Assembly (NCBI RefSeq): GCF_000373925.1
Contig: NZ_KB892709.1
Span: forward strand, 14,259 to 78,258
DNA: 64,000 bases
Source of the DNA: Actinopolymorpha alba DSM 45243
GTDB taxonomy: Bacteria > Actinomycetota > Actinomycetes > Propionibacteriales > Actinopolymorphaceae
Direction of reading: 5' to 3'
The translations under genes were made by a program, and so were the position numbers. The notes beneath the pieces were generated by a model. The model worked only from the letters and a program-made list of their open reading frames with translations. It ran no database searches and had not been told where the DNA came from. Positions 15,596 through 18,401 of this stretch are shown piece by piece. How positions within the stretch are numbered: the stretch's first letter is position 1; every line of letters begins with the position of its first letter.

Positions 15596-16057
15596 GTGCT
15601 CACGATCGACCAGGCGACCCACGACGCGATCGTCGCCCACGCCCGCGAGGACCACCCCGACGAGGCCTGCGGCGTGGTGGCGGGACCCGTTGGCTCAGAC
15701 CGGCCGGCGCGATTCGTCCCGATGACCAACGCGGAGCGCTCGCCGACGTTCTTCCGGTTCGACCCGCAGGAGCAGTTCCGGGTCTGGCGCGAGATGGACG
15801 ACCGGGACGAGGAGCCGTTGGTGATCTACCACTCCCACACCTCCACCGAGGCGTACCCCTCCCGTACCGACATCTCCTACGCCGCCGAGCCGGGCGCGCA
15901 CTACGTCGTCGTCTCGACCCGGGAGTCCGGCAGTGACGATGGTCCGGTCGAGTTCCGGTCGTACCGGATCATCGACGGCGTCGTCACCGAGGAGGAGGTC
16001 CGGGTCGTCCCGACGTACGCCCTGGCGTCCGAAGGCGAGCCGACGCCCCGAGCCTGA
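15596..16057 (+). CDS. mec: JAMM/Mov34 metallopeptidase (Mec-type, CysO-cysteine hydrolase)
   Basis: This 153-residue zinc peptidase has the JAMM set: Glu in DEACGVVAG, His-x-His in IYHSHTSTEAYPS, then the Ser and Asp of PSRTD. In mycobacteria, Mec releases cysteine from the C-terminus of the carrier CysO after CysM has built it there. cysO and cysM follow about 1.1 kb downstream, which supports this role. The GTG at 15596 is preferred over the longer frame because a TAGGCT hexamer lies seven bases upstream and the family begins near LTIDQATHD. Confidence 0.88.
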   Translation: MLTIDQATHDAIVAHAREDHPDEACGVVAGPVGSDRPARFVPMTNAERSPTFFRFDPQEQFRVWREMDDRDEEPLVIYHSHTSTEAYPSRTDISYAAEPGAHYVVVSTRESGSDDGPVEFRSYRIIDGVVTEEEVRVVPTYALASEGEPTPRA

Positions 16058-16126: not shown

Positions 16127-16852
16127 CTACCAGCTCTCCGTCGCCCAACGACGGCCGAAGTGCCTCTGCCACTCCGGATCCAGTGTCGCCACCCACTGGC
16201 CGTCCTCGTCGAGCACCTTCAGGCCGGGCTCAGGGCACGGCAGGCCGGCGAGCACCAGCATGAGCCGGGACCTGGTCTCCATGGGGGAGTCGACCCGGGG
16301 CAGGACCAGGGTCGTGGCCCGGCGGGCGAGGGTGGCTCCGTGCTGGCGAGTCGCCGAGTGCGTGATGTCGTGTAGCTGGTTGACGGTGACCCGGCCGCGT
16401 CTCACCATCGCGTCGCCGAGGACAACAAGGTCGAGAAGGTTGAGGTGTCCAGCGAGCTCGAGGAAGTTCCGGTCCGGCGTGACGACGGGCCGACCATCGA
16501 GTTCCGTAACCGAGCCGGCGAAGGGTCTGGTGTGCACCGCGATACCGCCGATCTCCGGACGTGGCGTTCCCGGCGGAACGGTCGCGTGGATCAGCCCGTC
16601 GTGGGGTAGCGGCAGGTGACGGAGTTGGGCGGCGGTGTGGTGGCTGACCGCGCCCGCGGGGAGGAGGAGCCGAGCCGCATCCGCTCGGACCTCGATCGTC
16701 TCGGGTACGCATGCGGAGAGGTAGACGCCTCCAAAGGGCCGGCGGAAGCGCTGCCCGCGCAGGACCTTCCGAGCGACCCCGAGGCTTCGCGCCTGAGACA
16801 GGGTGAAGGGCCGAGCCAGAAGCTCCGGCGGCAGGTCGGATGGTGCTGGCAT
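16127..16852 (-). CDS. AbiEi/DUF559-like protein, apparently truncated at the C-terminus
   Basis: The protein has 241 residues. The N-terminal LLARPFTLSQARSLGVARKVL and RGVY-like RRPFGGVYLSA resemble the winged-helix antitoxin-like domain of actinobacterial AbiEi/DUF559 proteins; VSHHTAAQLRHLPLP and VDSPMETRSRLMLVLAGLPC are also typical. Homologues I know continue after VATLDxA into a DUF559 nuclease-like domain with conserved Asp, Glu and Lys. Here the frame ends at VATLDPEWQRHFGRRWATESW, so that domain is missing. No toxin partner is adjacent. It runs antisense between mec and cysO and looks like an insertion into that conserved cluster. Confidence 0.65.
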   Translation of the reverse strand: MPAPSDLPPELLARPFTLSQARSLGVARKVLRGQRFRRPFGGVYLSACVPETIEVRADAARLLLPAGAVSHHTAAQLRHLPLPHDGLIHATVPPGTPRPEIGGIAVHTRPFAGSVTELDGRPVVTPDRNFLELAGHLNLLDLVVLGDAMVRRGRVTVNQLHDITHSATRQHGATLARRATTLVLPRVDSPMETRSRLMLVLAGLPCPEPGLKVLDEDGQWVATLDPEWQRHFGRRWATESW

Positions 16853-16972: not shown

Positions 16973-16978
16973 TAAGCT
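16973..16978 (+). promoter_or_regulatory. putative leaderless -10 element of the cysO leader peptide
   Basis: TAAGCT lies seven bases before the GTG at 16986, the spacing seen before mec, murI and rph. It is the only good -10 candidate in the 290 bases before cysO. Confidence 0.5.
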
Positions 16979-16985
16979 AAAGGGC

Positions 16986-17048
16986 GTGCAGCGCTTCCTC
17001 CTCGGACACTCCGCTCCGGTCGTCGTCTACGACTGTTCCGGCCGCTGA
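16986..17048 (+). CDS. putative leader peptide upstream of cysO (20 codons)
   Basis: A GTG-started frame of 20 codons reads MQRFLLGHSAPVVVYDCSGR and ends in TGA, 102 bases before cysO. It begins seven bases after a TANNNT hexamer and has no ribosome binding site, so it would be translated leaderless. A cysteine codon lies three codons before the end. Cysteine-rich leaderless peptides act as attenuators of sulfur genes in mycobacteria; this one has only one cysteine, so a similar role is a guess. CGTACG pairs around 17100-17130 could form a downstream stem. No homologue is recalled with certainty. Confidence 0.45.
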   Translation: MQRFLLGHSAPVVVYDCSGR

Positions 17049-17150
17049 CAGCACTCAGTAGCTGATCCAGCACCCAGGAACCGGAATCCCACCGGGCCCG
17101 TACGTGTTGATCGCATCGGGCTCGTACGACCACCAAAGGAGCATCAACCG

Positions 17151-17423
17151 ATGGCTATCGAGGTTCGCATCCCGACCATCCTCCGCACGCACACCGGAGG
17201 CGCCAAGACCGTCGAGGGCGCCGGCAAGACGCTGTCCGAGCTGATCGACGACATCGAGGCGCGTCACGTCGGGCTCAAGGAGCGGCTGGTGCACAACGGC
17301 GACCTCCGGAAGTTCGTGAACGTCTACGTCAACGACGAGGACGTGCGGTTCCGCGGCGGCCTCGGCGCCGAGGTGTCGGACGGCGACGTCGTGACCGTCC
17401 TGCCCGCCGTCGCGGGCGGCTGA
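17151..17423 (+). CDS. cysO: MoaD/ThiS-family sulfur carrier CysO
   Basis: This 90-residue ubiquitin-like protein ends in VLPAVAGG. The terminal Gly-Gly is converted to a thiocarboxylate that donates sulfur for cysteine synthesis. The visible core is VRIPTILRTHTGGAKTV, LIDDIEARHVGLKERLV, FVNVYVNDEDVRF and GDVVTVLPAV, all expected for CysO. An AAAGGAG ribosome binding site lies ten bases before the ATG. The gene is followed after 30 bases by cysM, its partner enzyme, and preceded by a possible leader peptide. Confidence 0.93.
   Translation: MAIEVRIPTILRTHTGGAKTVEGAGKTLSELIDDIEARHVGLKERLVHNGDLRKFVNVYVNDEDVRFRGGLGAEVSDGDVVTVLPAVAGG

Positions 17424-18401
<978 letters not shown>

Follow-up and report, generated by a model that had tools for sequence, protein, structure and literature searches.

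The locus examined here raises the question of how expression of cysO and cysM is adjusted in Actinopolymorpha alba DSM 45243, where a reading frame of 20 codons lies just 5' of the two genes within the 64,000-nucleotide stretch of DNA that was analysed (the window). The best explanation, with a probability of roughly 0.7, is that this frame would serve as a leaderless attenuator that responds to cysteine and probably acts on translation, and that a thiol-stress promoter would bypass it. The frame, MQRFLLGHSAPVVVYDCSGR (16986–17048), opens with GTG at 16986 and closes with TGA at 17046–17048, 102 bases before the ATG of cysO. The sulphur carrier protein CysO belongs to the ThiS/MoaD family (17151–17423; Pfam ThiS, 3.1e-17) and its gene is followed by cysM, which encodes a cysteine synthase (17454–18401; TIGR01136, 5.6e-105). 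The JAMM peptidase gene mec (15596–16057; Pfam Prok-JAB, 2.8e-32) lies farther upstream; we take Mec to free cysteine from CysO, as in the mycobacterial pathway. These features, and the promoter, leader and pairing elements located below, are on the forward strand. A 241-amino-acid gene on the minus strand (16127–16852), which has no Pfam or NCBIfam match, separates mec from the leader; five genus relatives lack it and have a mec–leader gap of 82–256 nt.

Initiation of the leader message is best considered through the hexamer TAAGCT at 16973–16978. By itself this hexamer is common (two occurrences in the window, with 3.6 expected); only 10 sites on the two window strands have the combination TANNNT-N6/7-RTG, several of them at apparent gene starts. 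The same −10 element with the same 7-base spacing precedes the leader start in 6/6 members of the genus, and nearly all leaders of relatives have TANNNT 6–7 bases 5' of a start codon in frame. A −35 consensus was sought upstream of the leader −10 element and was not found. TAAGCT is predicted to be a housekeeping-type −10 element, from which transcription would start at the leader GTG and yield a leaderless message. A preliminary description of the locus had placed the hexamer, the GTG seven bases on, the 20-codon frame and the 102 bases to cysO exactly as they stand, and had pointed to a promoter-to-start spacing in common with mec (15596) and murI (18911), both of which are indeed among the 10 sites.

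The leader peptide has been conserved at one locus across many genera. Its consensus, VQSFLFAHTPxVVVYDC-x-stop, is found upstream of cysO in 6/6 genomes of the window's genus and has one match each in 86/150 genomes searched of the GTDB family that includes Nonomuraea, Actinomadura and Microbispora. Loci collected by CysO similarity carry the same peptide directly 5' of cysO in Nonomuraea, Microbispora, Planomonospora, Streptosporangium, Actinomadura and others. When a 17-residue profile was run against 394 genomes of the class, 20 strong matches were obtained, one per genome, with E-values from 1e-11 to 2e-8; the next match (0.007) is five orders of magnitude away, and all placed strong matches lie 5' of cysO at distances of 48–191 nt. 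A held-out test of 66 new loci gave the same arrangement, with cysO 52–258 nt 3' of the leader in all of them. Nocardioides- and Kribbella-like relatives in which mec adjoins cysO have no leader there. The homologous leaders number 94 distinct sequences. Synonymous change is favoured in codons 4–10: the FLFAHTP stretch has a pS of 0.56 and a pN of 0.135 (ratio 0.24) in frame, compared to pN/pS values of 1.3–1.6 for the other two frames of the same stretch. These codons mostly change synonymously, so the peptide is under selection. Codons 13–17 (the GTC TAC GAC TGT region) have a pS of only 0.10, which marks an additional constraint on the nucleotides. Searches with the leader peptide returned nothing credible from Pfam or NCBIfam, and an Rfam search of the leader region gave nothing above gathering scores. 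A leader-peptide family at cysO is real and conserved in many soil actinomycetes, and is unmatched in NCBIfam and Pfam. An open frame that arose by chance and has no function could be suspected because twenty codons are few and the hexamer is common; one-locus conservation over many genera, in-frame selection and the held-out test refute this reading, which retains a negligible probability, and the frame is almost certainly a functional leader.

What the leader senses is indicated by its cysteine codon. The proposed sensor is the UGU at 17034–17036. This terminal cysteine is encoded by TGT in 93/93 distinct leaders that have it and in 66/66 of the held-out set; against the codon-usage baseline, TGT makes up 3/114 cysteine codons of the adjacent cysO and cysM at leader loci and 17/94 in the window ORFs. 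The remaining cysteines of these leaders are encoded by TGC (11) and TGT (4), and the one leader without the terminal cysteine has TGT for its only cysteine. The TGT statistics, like those for the ACGAC element treated below, rest on related sequences, and clusters were therefore also counted: with coarse clustering, TGT holds in 19/20 clusters (the twentieth is the leader without terminal cysteine) and ACGAC in 17/20. A similar rule applies to the leader families NF042934 and NF042936, in which the conserved cysteine 11 residues past a histidine is TGT in 46/47 cases, compared to TGC 34 and TGT 14 for their other cysteines (Fisher 2e-13). Models of these families do not match the window peptide at E-values up to 1 or the peptides of four relatives at E-values up to 10. 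That two mutually unmatched peptide families obey the same UGU rule points to decoding by tRNA-Cys at UGU as the functional event. Because the rare UGU always stands at the leader end, the leader is very probably a built-in gauge of cysteine supply, and it is likely to respond to cysteine at this codon; UGU may have been chosen for its slower decoding. Further NF042934-type leaders with TGT at the conserved cysteine occur in the window's own genome (L143, L144, L145).

These comparisons bear on several earlier expectations. Loss of the frame in relatives, or a lack of preference for synonymous change, had been named as a reason to abandon the leader; the frame is conserved and synonymous change is favoured, and comparison across relatives gives good support to the idea that cysO has a leaderless leader linked to cysteine. 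The view that a single late cysteine calls for a different logic is unneeded, given that in most NF042934 leaders, too, the conserved UGU is single and close to the stop, and control by CysO-bound cysteine finds no support.

The peptide sequence itself could do more than carry the sensor codon. If the nascent chain were the sensor, FLFAHTPxVVVYD would arrest the ribosome on a small molecule (free cysteine or another thiol) and UGU would merely set the arrest site. Residues L5, H8, Y15 and D16 are invariant across 47 non-redundant homologues, change at most conserved positions among 4–10 is synonymous, the last 17 residues are kept although the N-terminal part may be absent or may reach about 40 residues, and poly-cysteine runs are absent, all of which suit such a sensor. 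Charging of tRNA-Cys is nevertheless the simpler account of the strict UGU bias, which also extends to an unrelated leader family, and direct sensing by the nascent peptide is considered unlikely.

A possible output of the leader lies beside the cysO start. In the predicted fold of the long transcript, the leader segment GCUCC-GGU-CGUCGUC (codons 10–14; 17013–17027) faces the region 5' of cysO, so that GCUCC pairs with GGAGC, GGU with ACC and GUCGU with the ACGAC element at 17126–17130; the Shine–Dalgarno (SD) sequence of cysO, GGAG at 17138–17141, is predicted to be held by the leader GCUCC. When the window leader is recoded synonymously, the SD is hidden as effectively in only 0.7% of cases, and SD accessibility is 0.20 compared to 0.004 with the native leader; the overall stability of the window fold is ordinary (z −1.1). 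The leader GTC GTC codons are near invariant, and ACGAC lies within 60 nt 5' of cysO in 36/39 leader loci (shuffle mean 1.7), where it is the commonest 5-mer 5' of the cysO SD. It is present in 33/37 leader loci compared to 6/57 loci without a leader, for which most control stretches are mec coding sequence, and in 55/66 held-out loci.

Evidence for pairing across the family is uneven. Hiding of the SD has a mean rank of 0.38 among synonymous recodings, and with a ribosome stopped at UGU the SD is predicted to be more accessible in just 24/39 family loci (p 0.09). The two closest relatives (L004 and L005) lack GTCGT, and their SD is hidden no better than with recoded leaders. Cognate leader/ACGAC duplexes have energies no better than non-cognate ones because both segments are conserved, and their near invariance also places the pairing beyond covariation tests. 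RNAalifold applied to a 26-sequence alignment gave no strong consensus structure, with gaps that upset the register. Occlusion of the SD is the favoured control step, but only tentatively so, with somewhat less than an even chance of being correct.

A second promoter lies between the leader and cysO. The sequence GGAAT-N18-GTT at 17083–17108 fits the SigR promoter form GGAAY-N17/18-GTT, following the SigR/SigH consensus (PMC4803200), and it is kept in 6/6 genus members and in 59/66 held-out loci. The window genome encodes SigR, with a similar promoter upstream of that gene. A transcript from this promoter would start near 17115 and would not contain the leader. The mec-cysO-cysM operon of Mycobacterium tuberculosis is a direct SigH operon (PMC4803200), and cysM of S. 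coelicolor is induced by diamide (PMC4340878). The preliminary description held that a transcript start after the frame would speak against a leader; such a start is predicted here, but as a second one beside the upstream promoter. Its promoter picture stands as regards the upstream element and is incomplete as regards the SigR-type promoter at 17083–17108, which it missed. In seven Streptomyces loci, where cysO has an NF042934-type leader, a SigR-like motif overlaps the start codon of that leader, and transcription driven by SigR would therefore leave the leader out in these loci too. Upstream of cysO at six loci, a GC-rich inverted repeat has the SigR −10 GTT within its loop or close to it, and the stem sequence of this repeat differs between genera.

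Many relatives have the SigR −10 element inside a predicted hairpin that can form only in the longer transcript, which bears on whether control is exerted on transcription instead of translation. UGU would then still be the sensor, and with enough cysteine either Rho or the U-less hairpin at the SigR −10 element would end the transcript before cysO. Rho-dependent termination has been proposed for mycobacterial cys leaders (PMC1262725), and the hairpin is possible in the read-through transcript of many relatives (mean z −0.95). The interval between leader and cysO in the window has no terminator-like site, however, and in Nonomuraea the leader stop is only about 70 nt from cysO; ACGAC beside the SD fits translational control better. 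For mycobacterial cysteine leaders, a passage in PMC13236596 that cites Canestrari 2020 reports translation attenuation. Transcriptional control is accordingly given a low probability.

For a leaderless translational attenuator with a promoter bypass, the following course of events would apply. The housekeeping promoter would start the message at the leader GTG. At low levels of charged tRNA-Cys, the ribosome would pause at the single UGU codon, possibly with help from the conserved FLFAHTPxVVVYD nascent chain. The ribosome at UGU would cover the leader GUCGUC, which is the partner of ACGAC beside the cysO ribosome-binding site, and cysO would be translated; in the window species, pairing of GCUCC with GGAG would likewise be prevented. 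With ample cysteine, the ribosome would finish and depart, the pairing would form and cysO-cysM expression would fall. Under thiol stress, the SigR promoter inside the interval would produce a leader-free transcript that escapes leader control. The sequences establish the frame, the selection on its peptide, the invariant UGU, the ACGAC element and the presence of a SigR-type promoter sequence; leaderless transcription, ribosome pausing, SD occlusion and promoter bypass are what we infer from them.

The origin of the leader may lie in the neighbouring peptidase. Profile matches in eight Geodermatophilaceae loci were rejected as leaders because the matching stretch is the C-terminus of Mec: the protein ends there in VESYLFGHSPTTVVYD, a homologue of the leader, and the mec stop TGA stands at the position of the leaders' TGT. 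The ACGAC element is absent from these mec-tail loci. In Nonomuraea, the leader core starts 5 nt past the mec stop, and the two may be related by a split of the leader from Mec or by its fusion to Mec. The homology to a Mec tail would also suit action in trans, with the peptide as a small protein that binds Mec, CysO or CysM. The Geodermatophilaceae tail is predicted to be disordered (pLDDT <50) and lacks the cysteine, its loci lack ACGAC and protein function would leave the UGU requirement unexplained, which makes action in trans very improbable. A broader scenario, which is speculative and more doubtful than the attenuator itself, is that the leader is a split-off Mec tail which came to arrest the ribosome as a nascent chain and to sense cysteine at an obligatory UGU, and that UGU generally serves actinobacterial sulphur leaders as a dedicated sensor codon whatever their peptide sequence.

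Known systems share parts of this arrangement. TnaC is a nascent peptide that arrests the ribosome in response to tryptophan. TnaC-type arrest peptides have a conserved C-terminal peptide, as does the cysO leader, and in these and in ermC-type translation attenuators the position of the ribosome on the leader governs a downstream ribosome-binding site, as predicted here. The cysO leader differs in that its proposed signal is tRNA-Cys charging and not a drug or known ligand, and in that arrest is hypothetical. A classical transcription attenuator has an intrinsic terminator between leader and first gene, which is absent from this interval in the window. Members of the SigR/SigH thiol-stress regulon offer another parallel, with GGAAT-N18-GTT before cysO-cysM as for mec-cysO-cysM in M. 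tuberculosis (PMC4803200), but here the SigR-type promoter lies 3' of the leader peptide and would skip it. One operon could, as this suggests, answer both cysteine shortage through the leader and thiol stress through the leader-skipping promoter. In NF042934 (cis_reg_atten, HVDLxRVxSAxC), a single conserved cysteine close to the stop is likewise encoded by UGU, and in Streptomyces this putative leader occupies the same place before cysO; it has a different conserved peptide and occurs several times per genome, whereas the cysO leader occurs once, before cysO. The polycysteine leaderless short ORFs of mycobacteria (NF042936, NF042933), reportedly the subject of Canestrari's 2020 study, share with the cysO leader the leaderless start (predicted here), sulphur or cysteine genes downstream (here cysO-cysM), cysteine codons next to the stop and UGU at the conserved position. 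The cysO leader departs from them in having one conserved cysteine codon instead of a run, in its place before cysO, in its putative bypass by a SigR-type promoter and in a peptide that is unrelated by profile. Cysteine control in actinomycetes thereby gains a leader-peptide family that is unmatched in NCBIfam and Pfam, together with a testable rule that the sensing cysteine codon is UGU, rare in these genomes, in two unrelated leader families. By analogy, the cysO leader probably works like the known cysteine leaders while standing outside their peptide families.
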